NCBI RefSeq assembly: GCF_040183065.1
Contig: NC_091120.1
Location: 175,650,488-175,714,487 of the forward strand
Length of the DNA: 64,000 nt
Source: Periplaneta americana
Lineage: Eukaryota; Arthropoda; Insecta; Blattodea; Blattidae
Direction: 5' to 3'
Shown: positions 2,472 through 58,603 of the stretch, one piece after another
How positions within the stretch are numbered: position 1 is the stretch's first letter
Layout of the letters: the number at the start of each line of letters is the position of its first letter
Program-made: the position numbers and the translations under genes
The notes under the pieces: model-generated
Seen by the model: only the letters and a program-made list of their open reading frames with translations
Told to the model about the DNA's origin: nothing
Database searches by the model: none

Positions 2472-3446
2472 AATAATGGTTTACGAATTAAAACAGAAAA
2501 TCAATATCCCGAATTTAAAAGAAAACTTACAAATTAAACCAAACCCTTTAACTCTATTAAATATAGAACATAATCTAAATTTAACTGAAATCAGAAGTAC
2601 TAAAATAATGAAACAATTGTCTTTAGAGACAATTAATATTAAGTACCCTCCACAAAACTGGCTTCATTTATACACCGACGGATCCTTGATCTCCAGAGAA
2701 CAAGGTGCCGGTGCAGGTGTTATGTGTTGTCTCTTCTCACTTTATAGATCTCTTGGATATGGAACAACAAGTTTTGATGGAGAAATCGTTGCAATAAGTG
2801 AAAGTCTCAGGAATCTTCTATGCCACATCAATAAATTTAAGAATGCAGTTAAATTGTCAGACTCCAAAGCAGCTATTCTATCAATAGTCTCTAAACACAC
2901 ACCTTCCTCTCAAACAGCAGAAATAACTAAAATGCTCTCTCAATTAATATCACTCAATAAAAAAATTGTATTCCAATGGATACCATCCCACTGTGGAATC
3001 CTGGGAAACGAAAATGCGGATGCTTCAACAAAGAAGGGCAGCACAGCTACTTACAGACCTGTTACTAAATCTATGTATAACTCTGTGAAAAGATTTATTA
3101 AATCTACATACTTAGACTTCAACAAACAAAATTTGATAACACAATCCCAAGGGAAAAAATGGAACTCTCTGCATCATAATTCACAGTTAATTCCCGATTT
3201 ACCACGAAAATCGTCTGTAGCTGCATTTAGATTGGCAACAGACCATGACTGTTTGGCCAAACACCTGCATAGAATTGGAATATATCAGTCCCCTAACTGC
3301 CCATTGTGCAATTCAAACCAAGAAATGGATTCGGAACATCTCAAAATCTGTGCTTCAGTGGCTGACCATGATAATATCTTTGAAAAATATTGGAGTGCAA
3401 GAGGTCAAATGATTTTATTGTCAAACGCCTGGCATTAGAAAACAAC
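2472..3446 (+). mobile_element. I-group-like non-LTR retrotransposon, copy 1 (5' truncated)
   Basis: This is the 3' end of an RNase H-bearing LINE. It is flanked by the direct repeat AATTTGACAG (2462-2471 and 3447-3456), a target-site duplication, so truncation happened at insertion. The stop codon runs directly into a short AAAACAACAA tail. It sits in the odorant receptor gene just beyond exon 2, in antisense to it. Copies 2, 3 and 4 are at 23561, 30024 and 55310. Confidence 0.85.
2476..3438 (+). CDS. RNase H and zinc-knuckle end of LINE ORF2 (fragment)
   Basis: The 320-residue open frame is the C-terminal part of a LINE ORF2. The RNase H catalytic set is visible: YTDGS, DGEIVAI, SDSKAA and NENADA, giving D-E-D-D. 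A CPLC...SEHLKIC motif (C-x2-C-x9-H-x3-C) lies near the end. Compared with copy 2 at 23575-24702, a small deletion shortens the linker before RNase H (LTEIRSTKIMKQ), and LAKKG has become STKKG. The first methionine is just a codon inside the truncated ORF, so there is no real start and probably no expression as a protein. RNase H is typical of the I, LOA, Ingi and Outcast groups, so an I-group assignment is likely but not proven. Confidence 0.8.
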   Translation: MVYELKQKINIPNLKENLQIKPNPLTLLNIEHNLNLTEIRSTKIMKQLSLETINIKYPPQNWLHLYTDGSLISREQGAGAGVMCCLFSLYRSLGYGTTSFDGEIVAISESLRNLLCHINKFKNAVKLSDSKAAILSIVSKHTPSSQTAEITKMLSQLISLNKKIVFQWIPSHCGILGNENADASTKKGSTATYRPVTKSMYNSVKRFIKSTYLDFNKQNLITQSQGKKWNSLHHNSQLIPDLPRKSSVAAFRLATDHDCLAKHLHRIGIYQSPNCPLCNSNQEMDSEHLKICASVADHDNIFEKYWSARGQMILLSNAWH

Positions 3447-3483
3447 AATTTGACAGTAAACAAAACTATATATGGGCACATAC

Positions 3484-7520: not shown

Positions 7521-7783
7521 GCTAGATTTGCGTTTTTGCACACTTTGTGCCAGTTCGAAATGCACAGATAATAGAGACTGCACTTACTGTGGTTTTGAAA
7601 TTGAGAGTTTTTTTCAGTTCTGTAAGTACAATAAAATAATATTAATAACAAAATAAGATTGAACAATTTCCATTACCTTGTATATTGAGTGCTTGTTTTC
7701 GAAGTATTTAAATTACACTTTTTGTCATCCTTCAGCATGTGATACAGAAGTAGTATACTTGCCATATTGTTTATTGTACTTAC

Positions 7784-8667
7784 TGTAGCAATTCTTGATG
7801 TTTCTTCACAAATTCCGACAATATTTGTATAAGTTCAGAATCTATATTATCTTCTCTGTCTTCTATTTTTACTTGCTCTTTGTCATCTGCATCTTCTAAA
7901 CTCTGTAGCATATCAGATATTTCATCTGTTGTTGAAATTCTCTTAATTTTTTCTTGCTCCTTTTGTTTTTTCCTCTTCAGTGCATCTTCTTTAACATTCA
8001 GAATCATAAGTTGAAGGAAACGAAACTGAGATGTTGTTTTCATAATTAAAGACACAAAAAAGTCGCAGTTAACAGTTCCATTTAAGCATATGGTCATCAT
8101 ACTTATTGAAAGTAACAAATGAGCTACCCAGTAGCCGGGTGACTCAGAGACATCAAATGGAAAGCTAGCCTGGTATGGTAGAGACATCGACTCTGTACCA
8201 TTGGAGGAAGTTAAGAGAGGTTTAGCTGCGTAGGAAAATCCAGTTAAACAAGCAGGTCCCATAAATATCATGGTGATAAATTTACTAGACCTCATAGTTT
8301 CCTTAAATATGATTTTATATTCCTCTGGAAAATGTGTGGGCACAATGAAGATGTTGTCCACAGACTTAATAAGTAGCTCAAATTTGTCGATCATGGTAGG
8401 AATATATATCATACCGAAGATTGTGTTGTAGTGGGAAGCAATGATGATAATGTTGTCGAAAGGATCTGGGAGATGCCCCCATTCTAGATACATGTGATAT
8501 AAAACTGCTGTCAGAGTGGTTATTTTGATGCCCAGCATGAAGTAAAAGACTAGTTTATAGATTACTCTTTTCCAGAGAGCAGTATTCTCCTCTGGAGGCC
8601 ACAAACCGAGCATTCTCTGGATTTTTAGCTGTTCATACATGTAGACCTCAGATGGGACGATGTCCAT
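7784..8667 (-). CDS. Odorant receptor, exon 1 (N-terminus to second intracellular loop)
   Basis: The exon encodes about 294 residues of an insect 7TM odorant receptor, a ligand-binding subunit that works with Orco in the dendrite membrane of olfactory neurons. Start: MDIVPSEVYMYEQLKIQ, a typical cytoplasmic N-terminus. Hydrophobic segments fall at about residues 34-60 (TM1), 72-92 (TM2), 129-150 (TM3) and 178-209 (TM4). LPYQASFPFDVSESPGYW (163-180) is the conserved second extracellular loop motif. Glycosylation-type NGT sits at 156 and 196. After TM4 comes a long, highly charged loop (residues 225-275, Lys- then Asp/Glu-rich), then LIQILSEFVKKHQELL, the conserved end of intracellular loop 2. 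The donor GTAAGT at 7783-7778 follows CTACA. The frame reaches a stop only by reading into the intron, and exon 2 at 3583-3484 continues it in phase. A 2.7-kb transposon begins 450 bases upstream of the ATG. Confidence 0.9.
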
Positions 8668-9116
8668 ACTTGTAAAATTGCCTGATTATAAAGAAATTTC
8701 GAAATGTGTGATTTGAAAAATAAGGTGGAATACAAGAATGTGTGAATGCTGTAATAGTAGAGAACTTGATCCACAATTTGTTCAGAATATCTGAGAAAAA
8801 CCTAGTAGTAATGATATTGTGATCGGTAAACAAAAGCACTGCCACGAGTTCACAGAAATATGCGGGACTTTCCGTAAGATTTCTGTATATGAAAAGCTAT
8901 GTCGTGTGTTATTAATGCAGATATTGATTTGACTTCTTTCGATGATGAGCCATGACATATATGTAGATAACATATTGTTAGTATTACAGTACCTAATGTT
9001 ATAGTTGCTTGCGTAATTTTCTCCAGTAACTTTTTTTTGTGTCCCATATTCGAGGGTTTCACATATCAGGAAACATTCATACTTTAAAATGCTATCTTTC
9101 ATGCAGCTAGTGTATA
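8668..9116. promoter_or_regulatory. Presumed 5' flank of the odorant receptor gene
   Basis: The 450 bases between the receptor ATG and the terminal repeat of the transposon at 9117. They would contain the 5' leader and promoter if the gene has no upstream non-coding exon. No TATA box or other element can be assigned with confidence. Confidence 0.3.
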
Positions 9117-9247
9117 CAGGGTGATTCACGAGGATTTACCGTCCTTTACAGAGCTTATTTCCGAAGACATTCTGAGCAAAAAATGTCATATAAACATAGG
9201 TCCTATTCTCAATATTTATAGAGTTAAGTTTCGTTACTGGAACGCAT

Positions 9248-10430
9248 GATTCGACAGATAATGGAGAAAAAATGGGAGTATAAGGGTACAGTACATCAGT
9301 TATTCATAGACTTCAAAAAGGCATATGACTTGGTTAAGAGGGAAGTATTATATGATATTCTTATTGAATTTGGTATTCCCAAGAAACTAGTTCGATTAAT
9401 TAAAATGTGTCTCAGTGAAACATACAGCAGAGTCTGTATAGGTCAGTTTCTATCTGATGCTTTTCCAATTCACTGCGGCCTAAAGCAGGGAGATGCACTA
9501 TCACCTTTACTTTTTAACTTCGCTTTAGAATATGCCATTAGGAAAGTTTAGGATAACAGGCAGGGTTTGGAATTGAATGGGTTACATCAGCTTCTTGTCT
9601 ATGCGGATGACGTGAATATGTTAGGAGAAAATACACAAATGATTAGGGAAAACACGGAAATTTTACTTGAAGCAAGTAAAGCGATCAGTTTGGAAGTAAA
9701 TCCCGAAAAGACAAAGTATATGATTATGTCTCGTGACCAGAATATTATACGAAATGGAAATATAAAAATTGGAGATTTATCCTTCGAAGAGGTGGAAAAA
9801 TTCAGATATCTTGGAGCAACAGTAACAAATATAAATGACACTCGGGAGGAAATTAAACGCAGAATAAATATGGGAAATGCGTGTTATTATTCAGTTGAGA
9901 AGCTCTTATCATCCAGTCTGCTGTCCAAAAATCTGAAAGTTAGAATTTATAAAACAGTTATATTATCGGTTCTTCTGTATGGTTGTGAAACTTGGACTCT
10001 CACTCTGAGAGAGGAACATAGGTTAAGGGTGTTTCAGAATAAGGTGCTTAGGAAAATATCTGGGGCTAAGCGGGATGAAGTTACAGGAGAATGGAGAAAG
10101 TTACACAACGCAGAACTGCACGCATTGTATTCTTCACCTGACATAATTAGGAACATTAAATCCAGACGTTTGAGATGGGCAGGGCATGTAGCATGTATGG
10201 GCGAATCCAGAAATGCATATAGAGTGTTAGTTGGGAGACGAGGGAAAAGATCTTTAGGGAGGCTGAGACGTAGATGGGAAGATAACATTAAAATGGATTT
10301 GAGGGAGGTGGGATATGATGATAGAGACTGGATTAATCTTGCATAGGATAGGGACCGATGGCGGGCTTATGTGAGGGCGGCAATGAACCTTCGGGTTCCT
10401 GAAAAGCCATTTGTAAGTAAGTAAGTAAGT
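9248..10430 (+). pseudogene. RTE-like retrotransposon RT fragment with AAGT tail
   Basis: The frames 9246-9551 and 9567-10346 are one reverse transcriptase interrupted by a TAG near 9549 and another near 10344. RT motifs: FIDFKKAYD (motif A), [21 protein letters not shown] (motif C), and downstream YGCETWTL and RRLRWAGHV, the C-terminal block typical of RTE-like arthropod elements. The endonuclease and the front of RT are missing (5' truncation). The 3' end is GTAAGTAAGTAAGT. Candidate target duplication: TACTGGAACGCAT (9235-9247) and TACTGAAACCCAT (10430-10442), 2 mismatches. It sits inside the long-TIR element 9117-11784. Confidence 0.85.
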
Positions 10431-23560: not shown

Positions 23561-24713
23561 CTCCAATAGATTCTATGAGATTCCTCACTAATATTAACAG
23601 CATCAAAATGACAATAGAAGAAAAAGCACTGATTCAATATGAAAAACTTATTAGATTACCAGGAAACAATTGGCATTCATACAGTCCTCTCTGTAGATTG
23701 AAAACTCAAAAAAGTTTCATATCCATTGTTCAAGAATTAAAACAGAAAATCAATATCCCGAATTTAAAAGAAAACCTACAAATTAAACCAAACCCTTTAA
23801 CTCTATTAAATATGGAATATAATCTAAATTTAACAGAAGAAATACTGAAATCAGAAGTAAACACTGAAATACTAAAACAATTGTCTTTAGAGACAATTAA
23901 TATTAGGTACCCTCCACAAAACTGGCTTCATTTATACACCGACGGATCCTTGATCTCCAGAGAACAAGGTGCCGGTGCAGGTGTTACATGCTGTCTCTTC
24001 TCACTTTATAGATCTCTTGGGTATGGAACAACAAGTTTTGATGGAGAAATCATTGCAATAAGTGAAAGTCTCAGGAATCTTCTATGCCACATCAGTAAAT
24101 TTAGGAATGCAGTTATATTGTCAGACTCCAAAGCAGCTATTCTATCAATAGTCTCTAAACACACACCTTCATCTCAAACAGCAGAAATAACTAAAATGCT
24201 CTCTCAATTAATATCACTCAATAAAAGAATTGTATTCCAATGGATACCATCCCATTGTGGAATCCTGGGAAACGAGAATGCGGATGCTTTAGCAAAGAAG
24301 GGCAGCACTGCTACTTACAGACCTGTTACTAAATCTACGTATTACTCTGTGAAAAGATATATTAAATCTACATACTTAGACTTCAACAAACAAAATTTGA
24401 TAACACAATCCCAAGGGAAAAAATGGAACTCTCTGCATCAAAATCCACACTTAATTCCCGATTTACCACGAAAATCGTCTGTAGTTGCATTTAGATTGGC
24501 AACAGGCCATGATTATTTGGCCAAACACCTGCATAGAATTGGAATATATCAGTCCCCTAACTGTCCATTGTGCAACTCAAACCAAGAAATGGATTCGGAA
24601 CACCTCAAAATCTGTGCTTCAGTGGCTGGTCATGATAATATCTTTGAAAAATATTGGAGTGCAAGAGGTCAAATGACTTTATTGTCAAATGCCTGGCATT
24701 AGAAAACAACAAC
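23561..24713 (+). mobile_element. I-group-like LINE, copy 2 (longest, 5' truncated)
   Basis: A perfect 15-bp target duplication AACATTACTCAAAAT lies at 23546-23560 and 24714-24728. The stop codon is followed directly by AAAACAACAACAAC. Inserted in the last ArgRS intron in the same orientation as the gene. Confidence 0.92.
23575..24702 (+). CDS. LINE ORF2 C-terminus: RNase H plus CCHC (open)
   Basis: A 375-residue uninterrupted frame, the best-preserved copy in the window. Residues 1-110 are the linker after reverse transcriptase. RNase H runs from about 115 to 245 with D123 (YTDGS), E158 (DGEII), D184 (SDSKAA), H227 (SHCG) and D237 (NENADA). The zinc motif is C330-x2-C333-x9-H343-x3-C347. 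The last residues SNAWH lie immediately before the tail. The annotated start is only the first methionine of a truncated ORF. An open frame and near-identity to copies 1 and 3 suggest fairly recent activity. RNase H with no 3' UTR points to an I-group element rather than Jockey. Confidence 0.85.
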   Translation: MRFLTNINSIKMTIEEKALIQYEKLIRLPGNNWHSYSPLCRLKTQKSFISIVQELKQKINIPNLKENLQIKPNPLTLLNMEYNLNLTEEILKSEVNTEILKQLSLETINIRYPPQNWLHLYTDGSLISREQGAGAGVTCCLFSLYRSLGYGTTSFDGEIIAISESLRNLLCHISKFRNAVILSDSKAAILSIVSKHTPSSQTAEITKMLSQLISLNKRIVFQWIPSHCGILGNENADALAKKGSTATYRPVTKSTYYSVKRYIKSTYLDFNKQNLITQSQGKKWNSLHQNPHLIPDLPRKSSVVAFRLATGHDYLAKHLHRIGIYQSPNCPLCNSNQEMDSEHLKICASVAGHDNIFEKYWSARGQMTLLSNAWH

Positions 24714-24728
24714 AACATTACTCAAAAT

Positions 24729-25271: not shown

Positions 25272-25444
25272 AGTAGACCCTCGATTTAATGGACTTCGGA
25301 TTTAACGGACTTATTTTAAAATCTCTATTTCTAGATTATTTTAGGCAGTTTCCATCTTTAGTAATAAAGAAACAGCATGCAGTTGGAAAGCAACTGAAGT
25401 TTGATGCTTTCTTCATTCAGCCTACTAGTTCACAGCAACCTTCT

Positions 25445-26535
25445 TACTTACTTATTGACTTTTAAGGAACCCGGAGGTTCATTGCTGCTCTCATATAAGC
25501 CCACCATTGGTCCCTATCCTGAGCAAGATAATCCAGTCTTTATCATCACTCACACCTCCCTCAAATCCATTTTAATATTATCTTCCCATCTACGTCTCGG
25601 CGTCCCCAAAGGTCCTTTTCCCTCCGGCCTCACACCTAACACTATATGCATTTCTGGATTCGCCCATACATGCTACATGCCCTACCCATCTCAGACGTCT
25701 GGATTTAATGTTCCTAATTATGTCAGCTGAAGAATACAATGCATGCAGTTTTATGTTATGTAACTTTCTCCATTCTCCTGTAACTTCATTCCTCTTAACC
25801 CCATATATTTTCGTAAGAACCTTATCCTCACACACCCTTAATCTCTGTTCCCCTCTCAAAGTGAGAGTCCAAGTTTCCCAACCATAAAGAACAACCGGTA
25901 ATATAACTGTTTTATAAATTCGAACTTTCAGATTTTTTGACAGCAGACTGGATGATAAAAGCTTCTCAACCGAATAATAACAGGCATTTCCCATATTTAT
26001 TCTGTGTTTAATTTCCTCCTGAGTATCATTTATATTTATTACTGTTGCTCCCAGGTATTTGAATTTTTCCACTTCTTCAAAGGATAAATTTCCAATTTTT
26101 ATATTTCCATTTCGTACAATATTCTCGTCACGAAACATAATCATATACTTAGTCTTTTCGGGATTTACTTCCAAACCTATCTCTTTACTTGCTTCAAATA
26201 AAATTCCCGTGTTTTCCCTAATCGTTTGTGGATTTTCTCCTAACATATTCACGTCATCCACATAGACAAGTAGCTGATGTAACCCGTTCAATTCCAAACC
26301 CTCTCTGTTATCCTGGACTTTCCTAATAGCATACTCTAGAGCAAAGTTAAAAAGTAAAGGTGATAGTGCATCTCCTTGCTTTAGCCCACAGTGAATTGGA
26401 AACGCATCTGACAGAAACTGACCTATACGGACTCTGCTGTACGTTTCACTCAGACACATTTTAATTAATTGAACTAGTTTGTTGGTAATACCAAATTCAA
26501 TAAGAATGTTATATAAAACTTCTCCCTTAACCGAG
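25445..26535 (-). pseudogene. RTE-like RT fragment, minus strand
   Basis: The perfect target duplication TCACAGCAACCTTCT (25430-25444 and 26536-26550) marks a 5'-truncated insertion. Minus-strand RT text: [37 protein letters not shown] (alanine of the usual YADD changed to valine), [17 protein letters not shown]. The frame is open from 26594 to 25590 but its first 18 residues are host sequence, and the C-terminal end is frameshifted. The tail is (AAGT)n at the low-coordinate end. Confidence 0.9.
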
Positions 26536-26761
26536 TCACAGCAACCTTCTACCAGTAAATAAGTGCTTGCATATTCTTTTGTACTATTAGTCACTAACAG
26601 AAAGGAGTTTTTTTTTGTTACTAAAATGGTCTGTAAAATGTTTTTTTATTGCTATACTGTATTTATAATCGGACCCTAATACTATATAGTGTTTCTTTTT
26701 AAAATAGTAATACATTGTACTGTACTGTAGTGTTAAAATTTCAGTGTTGTATTATAAAATA

Positions 26762-27675
26762 GCAAGGAGATGCACTATCACCTTTATTTTTTAACTTTGC
26801 TCTAGAGTATGCCATTAGGAAAGTCCAGGATAACAGAGAGGGTTTGGAATTGAACGTGTTACATCAGCTACTTGTCTATGCGGATGACGTGAATATGTTA
26901 GGAGAAAATCCACAAATGATTAGGGAAAACACGTGAATTTTACTGGAAGCAAGTAAAGAGATAGGTTTGGAAGTAAATCCTGAAAAGACAAAGTATATGA
27001 TTATGTCTCGTGACCAGAATATTGTACGAAATGGAAATATAAAAATTGGAAATTTATCTTTTGAAGAGGTGGAGAAGTTCAAATATCTGGGAGCAACAGT
27101 AACAAATATAAATGATACTCGGGAGGAAATTAAACACAGAATAAATATGGGAAATGCCTGTTATTATTCGGTTGAGAAACCTTTATCATCCAGTCTGCTG
27201 TCAAAAAATCTGAAAGTTCGAATTTATAAAACAGTTATATTACCGGTTGTTCTGTATGGTTGTGAAACTTGGAGAGGAACAGAGACTACGGGTGTTTGAG
27301 AATAAGATTCTTAGGAAATTGGTGCTAAGAGGGATGAAGTTACAGGAGAATGGAGAAAGTTACACAACACAGAACTGCACGTATTGTATTCTTCACCTGG
27401 CATAATTAGGAGCATTAAATCCAGACGTTTGAGATGGGCAGGGCATGTAGCACGTATGAGCGAATCCAGAAATGCATATAGAGTGTTAGTTGGGAGGTCG
27501 GAGGGAAAAAGACCTTTAGGGAGGCCGAGACGTAGATGGGAAGATAATATTAAAATGGATTTGAGGGAGGTGGGATATGATGATAGAGAATGGATTAATT
27601 TTGCTCAGGATAGGGACCAATGGCAGGCTTATGTGAGGGCGGCAATGAACCTCTGGGTTCCTTAAAAGCCAGTAA
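26762..27675 (+). pseudogene. RTE-like RT fragment, plus strand
   Basis: Starts inside the GDALSPL motif and ends AAAAGCCAGTAAG. The repeat GTATTATAAAATA at 26749-26761 and 27676-27688 is the target duplication. YADDVNML is present, but a TGA (26935) and a frameshift after YGCETW break it. The C-terminal block [20 protein letters not shown] is intact. It is the second RTE in the same Tigger, in opposite orientation to the first. Confidence 0.9.
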
Positions 27676-27795
27676 GTATTATAAAATATTATCCTTTAAA
27701 AATTCGCGATTTAACGGACATCCCTTAGCCCCTATTAGTCCGTTAAATCGAGGGTCTACTGTAAATATCTTGTGATTTTTTTTTTTTTATTTCAG

Positions 27796-30023: not shown

Positions 30024-31050
30024 AACCAGGAAACAATTGGCATTCATACAGTCCTCTCTGTAGATTAAAAACTCAAGAAAGTTTCATATCCATGGTTCAA
30101 GAATTAAAATAGAAAATTAACATCCCGAATTTAAAAGAAAACTTACAAATTAAACCAAACCCTTTAACTCTATTAAATATAGAGTATACTCTAAATTTAA
30201 CAGAAGAAATACTGAAATCAGAAGTAAACACTGAAATAATGAAACAGTTGTCTTTAGAGACAATTAGTATTAGGTACCCTCCACAAAACTGGCTTCATTT
30301 ATACACTGACGGATCCTTGATCTCTAGAGAACAAGGTGCAGGTGCTGTCTCTTCTCACTTTATAGATCTCTTGGATATGGAACAACAAGTTTTGATGGTG
30401 AAATCATTGCAATAAGTGAATGTCTCAGGAATCTTCTATGCCACATCAATAAATTTAGGAATGCAGTTATATTGTCAGACTCCAAAGCAGCTATTCTATC
30501 AATCGTCTCTAAACACACACCTTCATCTCAAACAGCAGAAATAACTAAAATGCTCTCTCAATTAATAATACTCAATAAAAGAATTGTATTCCAATGGATA
30601 CCATCCCATTGTGGAATCCTGGGAAATGAGAATGTGGATGCTTTAGCAAAGAAGGGCAGCACTGCTACTTACAGACCTGTTACTAAATCTACGTATTACT
30701 CTGCGAAAAGATTTAGTAAATCTACATACTTAGACTTCAACAAACACAATTTGATAACACAATCTTAAGGGAAAAAATGGAACTCTCTGCATCATAATCC
30801 ACAGTTGATTCCCATTTACCACGCAAATCGTCTGTAGCTGCATTTAGATTGGCACCAGGCCATGATTGTTTGGCCAAGCACCTGCATATAATTGGAATGT
30901 ATCAGTCCCCTAACTACCCATTGTGCAACTCAAACCAAGAAATGGTTTCGGAACACCTCAAAATCTGTGCTTCAGTGGCTAACCATGACAATATCTTTGA
31001 AAAATATTGGAGTGCAAGAGGTCAAATGCCTGGCATTAGAAAACAACAAC
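30024..31050 (+). pseudogene. I-group-like LINE, copy 3 (broken)
   Basis: Co-linear with copy 2 from the PGNNWHSYSPL codons to the tail. Breaks: TAG at about 30109, a deletion removing part of the GAGAGV glycine stretch (about 30340), TAA at about 30766, a one-base loss near 30812, and a deletion shortening the very end (GQMPGIR for GQMTLLSNAWH). RNase H residues SDSKAA and NENVDA are still readable in 30472-30768. The tail is AAAACAACAACAACA. No clear target duplication was found. Confidence 0.9.
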
Positions 31051-31060
31051 AACATTTTCA

Positions 31061-31300
31061 ATAACAACAATTCAGATTGCCAGGTGATGATAGAAAACAA
31101 AAGACATGAAACAATTTAATACTATTTCTGATTTAACTATAGGGATACCATTTGAAATTTCAAAGGAGGTGGGGATGGTGAAGGGGATAAAACATAAAAT
31201 GCAATTAACACTGGTTTTAAACTTCCCTGTCAATATTTAAATTGATGTGTTTTTTTGTTTAAGTTAAATTTAATTGAAATAAATTGCGAAATTTTGAAAT
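31061..31300. repeat. Segment paralogous to odorant receptor intron 1
   Basis: 31061-31117 (GATTGCCAGGTGATGATAG..AAACAAAAGA) resembles 3597-3657, and 31194-31300 resembles 5500-5610, in the same order. In the receptor intron the two halves are separated by the MITE complex and other sequence. No receptor exon accompanies it here. Confidence 0.55.
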
Positions 31301-54959: not shown

Positions 54960-55262
54960 CATTTACAAAATGGCGTATCTTTTTTCTGTGTTGCAATTTG
55001 CGAACTGCGGTTCTGTAGTTTCTGTACAGTGAACTTTCTGATGGCAATTTAGAATTTGATTCTCTTTCCGATAACAACATTCCGATTCTATAGACAGCTT
55101 GAAATGACTGGATGCATCTGTAAAAGAAAGAGTTCAGGACGTCCACATGTGCCAAAAAAAGAGTCAAGAACATCAGAGCAGCTTTCGTACTTTGTCCAGG
55201 GTCTCCTGATCGCATACCATTTGTGCCTAAGAGTTTTTGTGGATTTATACGTCCTTAGTCAA
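54960..55262 (+). pseudogene. Mariner-like transposase N-terminal HTH relic
   Basis: Plus strand, shifting frames: AYLFSVLQFANCGSVVSVQ, SDNNI, FRFYRQLEMTGCICKRKSSG, RPHVP, then KNIRAAFVLCPGSP. This is the double-HTH N-terminal half of the same clade as the catalytic relics at 1881 and 34390 (pattern RWYRQFEETGCLCKGKSSGR, then VRxAFxRSPxKS). An antisense 90-aa frame here is an artefact. The host sequence resumes at 55263 and is then cut by the LINE derivative. Confidence 0.8.
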
Positions 55263-55309
55263 TAAGAAGAAGAAGCAACATTTAGGAATCTTTCAACAGT
55301 CTCATAAAA

Positions 55310-56055
55310 GGCTGCAAAAGGGTATCTGTCGGATACAGGGGGGAGAGCCATTAATCCTTCCCATTGAAGGCTTTAAGGAACCAACCTGGACAAATACCCA
55401 ATGTCCCATCCCTACCTTCCCGTGGTGCAGCTGTTAGCAAGCATAATTTTACAAGCTGAACTAAAGGGAGGGGCTACTCATCAATTAGCACTGGTCAGCT
55501 TGATGAGTTAATGACCGAATTTGGTATAATTTTCCTCTATTCAATACCTAATTCCCTCTTTACCTTTTCCTATCCAGTCCTCTGACTGAACTCTTACTTT
55601 CTTCGACCCTGACGGCATTAGAGCATTCGAGGCCTAGGGGTTCATTTCCCTTTCCTTCCTCCTCTTTCTACTTTTCTGTTCCTAGTGCTGACCTGCTATG
55701 ACACTAAAATCGTCCTCCAGTGGCTTAAGGAGGGAAAGCTGGTGATCAACAAGATCTCCCAGCTAGGTCTAGTAGACTCGTCGACCAACAGCAGGTGTGG
55801 TCCTCCAGACATTCTGGGGGTTGTGTGTGAATGAAGTAGCCACCAAAACGTTAAAATATGGTGTTCACTTAAATCGGCTACAACTTGCCATTTTCATCTT
55901 ACAATGGAATGCTGGCGGTATAACACAAGAAATGGATTCGGAACACCTCAAAATCTGTGCTTCAGTGGCTGACCATGATAATATCTTTGAAAAATATTGG
56001 AGTGCAAGAGGTCAAATGACTTTATTGTCAAACGCCTGGCATTAGAAAACAACAA
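55310..56055 (+). mobile_element. I-group-like LINE derivative: both ends kept, middle deleted
   Basis: The target duplication CAACAGTCTCATAAAA occurs at 55294-55309 and 56056-56071 (11 bases unambiguous, the rest could be the CAA tail). Between them 5' sequence of about 610 bp runs into LQWNAGGITQ, the expected start of an AP-endonuclease, fused at about 55924 to EMDSEHLKIC, the zinc motif near the ORF2 C-terminus, then TAG and AAAACAACAACAACA. About the whole of ORF2 between is missing. It shows where the parent family begins and that no long ORF1 precedes the endonuclease. Confidence 0.85.
55797..56045 (+). CDS. 82-residue fused ORF of the LINE derivative
   Basis: An in-frame fusion: residues 1-35 come from sequence before the endonuclease, FILQWNAGGITQ from the endonuclease start, and EMDSEHLKICAS onward from the C-terminus. 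The fusion point shares CAAG with the normal EMDSEH context, so a microhomology deletion or template jump is likely. It has no catalytic residues of EN, RT or RNase H and only half of the CCHC motif (H-x3-C). Whether it is translated is unknown. Confidence 0.6.
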   Translation: MVLQTFWGLCVNEVATKTLKYGVHLNRLQLAIFILQWNAGGITQEMDSEHLKICASVADHDNIFEKYWSARGQMTLLSNAWH

Positions 56056-56071
56056 CAACAGTCTCATAAAA

Positions 56072-56424
56072 TTAAACCGTTCGACTGTATTTTTTAAAAC
56101 TACAGTATGTTTTCAAATGTTCTTTTTATTTTGAGAAACTGTTAAGGAGAAAGAGTGGAATCTCCCTTTGTCATTACCTAATGCTTTCTTCTTCAGTCCT
56201 ATGATGACAGGACCAATCCCAATCGAGCAAGCACCATCTCCTTTCTGAGACGAGTCATCTCCCAAAACACATCATGCACTGAAACATGAAGAAGAAATTA
56301 TTTACGTACTGTATATGTCGACATCATATATAGGATCAAGAATATAAACGACTTAGATGAAAATGGAGCTTTATATGGAAATAACTATGTCATTCTTAAG
56401 ACATTATAAAAGTTGAATCGTAAG
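56072..56424. other. No gene recognised
   Basis: Spacer between the LINE derivative and the foldback. Confidence 0.4.
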
Positions 56425-56960: not shown

Positions 56961-58138
56961 TCTACAGTCTAGCCTGTATAGTAGCAATGAAGCTGAAACT
57001 GCCTCTCAGATTGTGTGACTGCAAATATTCGCACATCTAAGATGCCATTCATATGAATTTTTTTTCAACATTGAGCAACTTAATCACAAGCCTCCCTAAA
57101 AGAACATAAAACCTCTTTAAGAGTTAGGACTAACAAATCTCCATCATCATCTCATCTCATTACAGGTGCATGACATAAAATGTCAAGTACCCGCCGTTAA
57201 AAAAAAAAAAAAAAAAAAAAAACTTTCATCCATTACACAGTAAATTTTGAACTTAACTGATTTTTCATCTAAAATTTCGGCTGCATACATTATTAGTTCC
57301 TTATATTGACCTACCTGAACTTTTAACTAAGCCCCTTTCGATGTAGCGTAGGTAGTTGAGGAAATCACATACTGCAATTATCTGGAAACAAATTAATTCG
57401 ATTCGATTTAGTTTCATATGTACCGTACTTCATTTTTCATTAACACTCTGGCCTAAGCTTGATGACCTGTACTGCATACTGAAATACAGGATTAATGCAG
57501 GAAATCGTTAATACTTGAGTTAAATATGTGATGTCAATATTTTGACTTCATGGAAAATGAAGATAGATCCCCCCTCCCCCCATAAAAAACAACTGCAAAA
57601 GAAAGAAAATATTTTATAATCATATGACTAAAGTCGTGTTGTTATGGTGATATTTATTTTCAATTTCGCACAAAATTAAAATATAATGTTATTCCGAAGT
57701 AAATTCCCAGTTTCAAATGGCCATAAGTCCAAAGTTCGGAACTTGGAGACTTGTGTCTTTGCATGTAGCTAACCGACCGGACTTCAATATCAACAAACTC
57801 CCACTTCCAGCACCTGACAAGGTCTGGTAGAAAAGTGGTTTCTGGCTAGAACAACATATTGATAGTACTATGGTAGGTTGAAATACCGGTATGTAATTTC
57901 ATAGGAACCAAACTGATAATATGTATAGAAAATAAAGCCATTTCAAACAGGAAACTTCATTTAGAATAATCTTATACATTGTTTTTATAAGTTTGTGACA
58001 TAGAATATAGTTCTACAAAATTAGCAAACAAAAACTTTCAGACATTATTTAAATTAGTACAAAAGTTGAAAAACTGTCGAATATGCCATGAGCAGTGCAA
58101 ACATGGGTGATATTTATAGCAGTATTACTTTCTCTTCT
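56961..58138. other. No gene; poly-A run at 57198-57222
   Basis: The A-run could be the tail of a decayed retroposon, but no body was recognised upstream. Confidence 0.4.
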
Positions 58139-58603
58139 TACTTACAAACTTACAAATGGCTTGTAAGGAACCTGGAAGTTCATAACCCACCACCGGTCTC
58201 TATTCTGAGCAAGATTAATCCAGTCCCTAGTATCATATCCCATCTCCCTCAAATCCATTTTAATATTATCCTTCTATCTACGTCTTTCTCCCCTCAGGTC
58301 TTCTAACACTACATACATTTCTGGATTTACTTATACTTGCTACATGTCCTGCCCATCTGAAAGTCTGGATTTAATGTTGCTAATTATGTCAGGTGAATAA
58401 TATAATCCGTGCAGTTCTGAGTTGTGTAACTTTCTCCATTCTCTTGTAACTTCATCCCTCTTAGCCCCAAATATTTTCCTAAGAACCTTCTTCTCGAACA
58501 CCCTTAACTTTTATTCCTCTCTCAAAGTGAGAGTCCAAGTTTCACAATCATTCAGAACCGGTAATATAAATGTTTTATAAATTCTAACTTTCAGCTTTTT
58601 TAA
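58139..58603 (-). pseudogene. RTE-like 3' fragment, badly decayed
   Basis: Reverse complement of the RTE C-terminal region, including text for [13 protein letters not shown]-like (58560-58511), the NIKSRRLRW-like region and the GTTCC..AAGTAAG end at 58139. It has more substitutions and indels than the copies at 9248 or 26762, so it is older. Confidence 0.85.

Follow-up and report, generated by a model that had tools for sequence, protein, structure and literature searches.

Within a 64-kb window of the Periplaneta americana genome (C4:175650488-175714487; "the window" denotes this whole stretch throughout) lies a 746-bp element with two precise ends, starting with GGCTGCAAAA at 55310 and finishing with ATTAGAAAACAACAA at 56055. 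It is flanked on the plus strand by an exact 16-bp repeat, CAACAGTCTCATAAAA, at 55294..55309 (left target-site duplication) and again at 56056..56071 (right target-site duplication). Because the CAA at the start of CAACAGTCTCATAAAA runs into and merges with the (CAA)n tail of the element, the duplication length of 11-16 bp given in the first-pass annotation is a fair one. From 5' to 3', all on the plus strand, the element is composed of the complete 5' leader (5'UTR) of a parent LINE, from its first base to about -12 relative to the parental ATG (55310..55896); the segment ATCTTACAATGGAATGCTGGCGGTATAACA, a piece of the start of the parental open reading frame (ORF) from about +97 to +124, which reads ILQWNAGGIT and matches the ORF start in the loci L091 and L080 (55897..55925); and the last 130 nt of the LINE, with the C-terminal zinc motif, the stop codon and the CAA tail (55926..56055).

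The leader and the 3' end both match the parent, in agreement with the earlier description of an internally deleted LINE copy that keeps both parental ends. That description envisaged a single in-frame joint; the element contains two, at about 55896/55897 and 55925/55926, and the parental sequence between about -12 and +97, with the start codon and the hairpin at the start of the ORF, is gone. The frame ILQWNAGGITQ-EMDSEHLKIC does stay open through the joint to the LINE stop codon, as had been noted, but this is incidental, because the start codon and the stable hairpin behind it have been lost, and no translation from the parent's start codon would be possible.

The same 3' end (about 55922-56055) is found in three 5'-truncated copies of the parent LINE elsewhere in the window (at 3316-3448, 24580-24727 and 30933-31064), all on the plus strand and without a leader: 2476..3448, which retains RNase H and the 3' end; 23658..24727, the source of the LINE query used below; and 30025..31064, which is also internally damaged. 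A second LINE, of RTE-like appearance, has copies at 9228-10425, 25440-26645, 26761-27678 and 58137-58601, with a Pfam match to RVT_1 in 25590-26645, and an odorant receptor exon (7tm_6; Pfam, 4.5e-10) lies on the minus strand at 7780-8685. No tRNA was detected in the 64-kb window by ARAGORN (bacterial code), and no Rfam match to a tRNA-, 7SL- or 5S-derived head was obtained in 55200-56150; Rfam matches to miRNAs in the window and at other loci lay far below the gathering scores and were ignored. Judged by its sequence, the element is not a SINE, and its head is the leader of a LINE. A reading of the extension CACTCCAATAT as an inverted LINE piece was dropped when comparison showed parental sequence.

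The parent LINE and its leader

The parent is represented by one contiguous locus of ~4.24 kb (4243 from the aligned start), formed by L091 and the adjacent L147, which joins leader, endonuclease, reverse-transcriptase/RNase H region and 3' end. Its leader aligns from base 1, where it reads GGCTGAAAAAGGG with one base changed; a CAA tail stands at the end of the locus, and ATGAACTTAC occurs close to both ends. The ORF starts with ATGAGTACC (MSTIKVKLSGG...NILQWNAGGITSAKKTE), 600 nt from the 5' end. The locus is not intact, having a frame stop at codon 375 and lacking a stretch of ~80 bp. Domain matches (Pfam), which come from pieces of different copies, comprise an Exo_endo_phos-type endonuclease in L091 (1.1e-13), RVT_1 in L069 (3.3e-31) and RNase H in the two 5'-truncated LINE copies of the window that were tested. 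No ORF1 was found in the leader of the window copy, in which the longest stop-free stretch is 70 codons, consistent with the earlier view that there is no room for a normal one. By these features, the parent is a single-ORF LINE of the APE type with endonuclease, reverse transcriptase, RNase H and zinc motif, and without ORF1.

An ORF-start query, for which the best 40 of 1573 candidates were scored and all 39 others fetched, yielded 39 endonuclease-bearing copies (L108-L146). The leader runs uninterrupted into the ORF in every one, about 60 nt of it being visible in each, and seven of the copies, with point changes in the text anchors, were read by eye. Along with the contiguous ~4.2-kb locus, these copies confirm the proposal that the 5' sequence is joined to a full-length parent, and the leader is the LINE's own 5'UTR. 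The 5' end of the parent was thus correctly revealed by the short element; its distance from the endonuclease, given as about 610 bp, requires correction to ~600 nt up to the ATG and ~700 nt up to LQWN.

By our own reading, the spot where the joints of the short copies lie, about -10 to -18 before the ATG, also divides the 39 endonuclease-bearing copies into four discrete allele classes: ATTTAACTCC and a one-base variant (15/39), ATTTTTCACTCC (12/39), ATTTAACC(A/G)CTCC and one relative (9/39), and ATTTTCACTCC and a one-base variant (3/39). The ~100 nt visible around this spot bear mostly scattered point changes. Behind the start codon, at about +5 to +81 (L091:577-677), a hairpin is predicted at -29.6 kcal/mol (z -3.42; reached by 2 of 200 shuffles); the wider 171-nt fold around the joint region is not unusual (z -0.74).

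At its 5' end, the element probably carries an HDV-like self-cleaving ribozyme of the drz-agam-1 type (55310..55472, plus strand), as suggested by a match to this Rfam family and by a P1-P2-P3 core. The match, at 55395-55472, reaches 26.7 bits, below the gathering score of 37 (E 0.0059 in 951 bases and E 0.4 in the whole window), and drz-agam-1 recurs in 11 of 20 other loci at 25.1-27.7 bits, the other nine being unlisted at E 0.5. In the candidate core, the first P1 strand is GGCTGC, the first six bases of the element (55310-55315), and pairs with GCAGCT directly after P3 (55427-55432); P2 would lie near 55409-55413/55465-55469, P3 at 55414-55416/55424-55426 and the candidate catalytic C at 55461. 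P1 is separated from P2 by an insert of ~80 nt that is predicted to be able to fold on itself, and P1.1 is weak in our own reading of the candidate. A descriptor of the P1-P2-P3 layout, written after the layout had been seen, fits 513 of 364,617 shuffles (0.14%). P1 pairing is possible in 32 of the 33 copies that have both strands; one P1 base is changed in the full-length copy L091, and the substitution C122T, which weakens a P1 pair, is present in all six of L021, L028, L035, L036, L037 and L042. With a ribozyme beginning at base 1, the precision of the 5' ends would be explained, as it is for R2 according to the accessible part of the report on that element (PMC3414825). Where the first-pass annotation placed a probable promoter, the 5' end has rather the look of an HDV-type ribozyme. 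Pol III termination at a T-run was also considered and set aside; the leader has other T4 runs.

Short copies and the sites at which they are joined

The genome searched comprises 3,231,669,367 bases in 91 contigs, and in each search the best 40 of 1573-2770 candidates were scored. With the 746-bp element as the query, the best 40 of 2300 first-look candidates, with 44 matches, were scored; every one of the 40 spans nearly the whole element, with identities of 92-95% for the 39 besides the window copy, which exceeds chance and supports the earlier view that there are many copies. The alignment begins at base 1 in 32 of the 39 fetched copies, and the 40 copies depart from their majority sequence by 0.8-4.2% (median, 1.9%); by this measure, the short copies are a young multi-copy family. 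Target-site duplications were tested in 52 copies, namely the window copy, 35 of the 39 copies and 16 of 20 leader loci, leaving out four copies that start beyond base 3 as well as L072, L076, L080 and L091. An exact repeat of at least 7 bp flanks 42 of the 52, the commonest lengths being 13 and 14 bp (10 copies each), and the flanking repeat is shorter than 7 bp in 10; five of the 52 are embedded in AT-rich repeats, which makes the test hardly informative for them. The target duplications, the precise ends and the tail together indicate that LINE machinery moved the short copies.

Some loci contain more than one unit. L013 holds two short copies head to head, about 50 bp apart, and L033 holds two in tandem, about 155 bp apart. 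In L072 (C16:188543600-188547000), three tandem units of leader plus a ~32-nt tail have one joint. The spacer ACATTTTTATATCC stands behind both the first and the second unit, and a LINE 3' end lies ahead of the array, which looks like tandem duplication of one insertion. At L084 and L072, the inserted copies retain no more than about 22-35 nt of the LINE 3' end, a length that would set a limit to the 3' signal needed by the enzyme.

In most copies recovered with the 746-bp query, the aligned sequence is the same up to ACAACTTGCC and again from about AAATGG, and variable in between. This sample of 40 contains 29 distinct joints, with 37 of the leader ends at -19 to -1. Because the 746-bp query favours copies built like the window copy, a leader-only search was run with the first 581 nt, for which the best 40 of 1949 candidates were scored, at 42 places; four of these belong to the first sample (the window copy, L009, L010 and L017), and the other 38 amount to 36 loci, all fetched, with the tandem units of L072 counted once. 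In 30 of the 36 loci, the last leader base lies between -18 and -5, counted from the parental ATG; in this search, copies with a leader ending further upstream would rank lower. In L083, the leader ends at +9; in L088, L100 and L080, the leader side extends to +92, +85 and +120, respectively, before the tail; and L076 and L091 continue into the ORF. The tails, measured in 34 of the 36 loci, begin about 22-411 nt from the 3' end, and the 36 loci contain 35 distinct joints, only L087 and L102 sharing one. A query with the 3' kilobase of the LINE (20 loci) contributed three further short copies, with leader ends at -16, -15 and -10 and tails of 1027, 1601 and 1695 nt, and one already counted (L027, inside L060); no partial leader was found by BLAST in these 20 loci. 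Some tail starts in the tally are shortened by point changes (L084, 22, elsewhere 28 or 31; L089, 82 vs 111). Where a short copy fitted several allele classes equally well, the tally placed it in class D, and the allele counts of short copies, being unreliable, were not used.

Among the 30 hotspot joints of the leader query, nine have an overlap of 1-3 nt, eight are blunt, six have 1-3 extra nt and seven have at least 7 extra nt; in the last group, L086 and L093 contain a piece of the ORF start, and in some others, for example, L089 and L084, the extra nt may stem from point changes in the tail. The overlap at these joints is at most 3 nt, with no long microhomology, and no common bases at the LINE side were seen by eye. 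Double joints are present in the window copy, L086 and L093. On the leader side, 6 of 79 copies (the window copy, L080, L086, L088, L093 and L100) land just past the ORF-start hairpin, at about +85 to +124, a suggestive placement.

Besides L087/L102, joints are shared within the pairs L010/L018, L014/L033, L020/L039, L034/L041 and L045/L047 and within a group of seven copies like L009, where the overlap is 5 nt. Shared joints also fit propagation in trans or duplication, and some copies may have propagated in trans to a limited extent. The copies L021, L028, L035, L036, L037 and L042 have one joint and common substitutions, several of them lie in TA-rich sequence, and L035 and L037 have an identical left flank; these six probably owe some of their spread to another repeat that carried them along.

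Origin of the short copies

In our view, the short copies are likely to be largely independent products of template jumping, in which the reverse transcriptase, engaged in target-primed reverse transcription, landed on a hotspot at the leader/ORF boundary. In keeping with this, one side of the joint is mostly pinned while the other wanders, a few extra nt are often present, the overlap in the hotspot joints of the leader query does not exceed 3 nt, and double joints occur. Under this scheme, the element would be cut from a longer transcript at its first base, probably by the HDV-like ribozyme; the LINE enzyme would begin target-primed reverse transcription at the 3' end of the RNA, halt early or meet a break in the RNA, and jump to a second RNA piece ending at the leader/ORF boundary, which would then be copied to its first base. 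The reason for landing at this site is the least certain point. Our best guess is that the structured leader makes the favored acceptor, either because protein holds it or because it is what remains after decay or cleavage immediately before the ORF-start hairpin; as candidate causes of the pinned landing we see a leader RNA that is free, one that is bound by protein, and a tendency to avoid the hairpin. The R2 reverse transcriptase jumps between separate templates and requires nontemplated addition, and the texture of the joints here agrees with that behavior as set out in the available part of the report (PMC8857657). A more tentative, and in our view doubtful, extension is that a break immediately ahead of the start codon routinely separates the leader from the rest of the LINE RNA and sets free a ribozyme-capped leader that serves as a dedicated acceptor. 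Each time the enzyme dropped off early, it would jump to this leader and furnish the truncated copy with a complete 5' end, so that the element would re-cap its own failures; if true, the four parental allele classes would be old joints inherited by full-length lineages.

The first-pass annotation favored one deleted master with a fixed junction, spreading in trans as a LINE counterpart of a MITE. The abundance of copies with both ends and target duplications is compatible with such a master, as are the six pairs that each share a joint and the seven copies with the joint CATTTAACTGCCC, six of them with common substitutions. As a family defined by the junction of the window copy, however, it is refuted in the copies sampled, in which 35/36 and 29/40 joints are distinct and the window joint is absent from the other 78 tallied copies (once in 79). 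Even the CATTTAACTGCCC group is probably in part the outcome of duplication at the DNA level, as two of its seven copies have an identical left flank, and we hold a fixed-junction master to be unlikely as the general explanation. What recurs, to judge from the sequences, is a process and a landing site, not a junction. Shortening of full-length copies after insertion, through end joining of broken DNA as proposed for Hebe, would leave intact ends around an internal loss, and some overlaps do reach 3-5 nt. It is quite unlikely, given that, of the two break points in a 4.2-kb element, one would lie mostly within about 14 nt and the other is widely variable, that the copies are only 0.8-4.2% from the consensus, and that overlaps in the hotspot joints of the leader query do not exceed 3 nt vs 5-14 bp in Hebe, as far as the accessible text on the latter goes (PMC2861651).

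It is also very unlikely that the enzyme copied an RNA that had already been made short, whether by imprecise cleavage and ligation or by splicing at loose sites: one side of the joint is nearly fixed, as such a process would have it, but splicing gives exact joints, and here both sides vary and extra bases occur. The fixed 5' part and variable LINE tail further recall the anatomy of MINE chimeras, in the accessible part of their description (PMC2104539), and could suggest a leader of foreign origin that became attached to the LINE by chance, like WEIRD in those chimeras. This MINE-like reading was rejected as most improbable, since the leader precedes the ORF without interruption in 39/39 endonuclease-bearing copies. 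Variation of full-length copies at the same spot prompted the further notion that every insertion, even a full-length one, unites a leader RNA with a separate body RNA afresh. In that strong form it was rejected, as only four recurrent allele classes are found among the 39, which points to inheritance of the joint in full-length copies. Template jumping by the LINE enzyme onto the leader/ORF boundary remains our preferred reading.

Known systems and significance

In trypanosomes, ingi and L1Tc are LINEs accompanied by short partners, RIME and NARTc, respectively, with which they have common 5' and 3' ends; ingi and L1Tc follow a single-ORF EN-RT-RNase H plan, and RIME is a defined partner with a constant junction. 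The parent LINE described here is ingi-like in its domain plan, a likeness of domains only. The Pr77 region of L1Tc contains an HDV-like ribozyme, according to the available part of its report (PMC4035085).

Short Internally Deleted Elements (SIDEs) are represented by R2 SIDEs and R2/R1 hybrids in Drosophila (PMC3414825) and by Persaeus/Zenon in Lepidoptera (PMC6740152). In the accessible parts of these accounts, SIDEs resemble the elements here in joining LINE 5' and 3' ends without an ORF and in being carried by LINE machinery; the hybrids at R1 sites have a 14-bp TSD, and the 5' end of R2 SIDEs is an HDV-like ribozyme (PMC3414825), which is probable in our case. SIDEs are there portrayed as families of common structure, whereas in the cockroach sample the joint is different in nearly every copy, and its leader side is for the most part confined to a short stretch immediately ahead of the start codon. 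Propagation as a lineage of its own, with an inherited junction, does not hold as a rule here (35/36 joints distinct), although some joint-sharing groups exist.

The MINE chimeras of Magnaporthe, which combine WEIRD with the MGL LINE and are explained by template switching (PMC2104539), share with the elements here a constant full-length 5' part, a 5'-truncated LINE part of variable length, a TSD and the rare multiple joint, as presented in the part of that report available to us; the same part gives a GCC-A/U rule for the chimeras. Their 5' part is described as an unrelated RNA (PMC2104539), whereas here it is the LINE's own leader. Hebe of the rotifer Adineta vaga likewise keeps its 5' ends while the ORF is damaged by internal deletion; its deletions of 12-200 bp, with 5-14 bp of microhomology, are attributed to DNA end joining in the accessible portion of the source (PMC2861651). 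The literature searched, mostly papers available without subscription, contained no report of a LINE that forms its short copies by separate jumps to the boundary between its own leader and ORF.

Non-autonomous partners of LINEs are usually pictured as heirs of one lucky deletion; the copies sampled here look like many separate products of one reaction. The genome would thus hold a natural record of reverse-transcriptase jumps, each copy showing from where the enzyme jumped, where it landed and which bases were added. With large numbers of such copies, one could ask what a LINE enzyme jumps to, and why, at a landing site that is tied both to the start codon and to a leader in which a ribozyme is probable.
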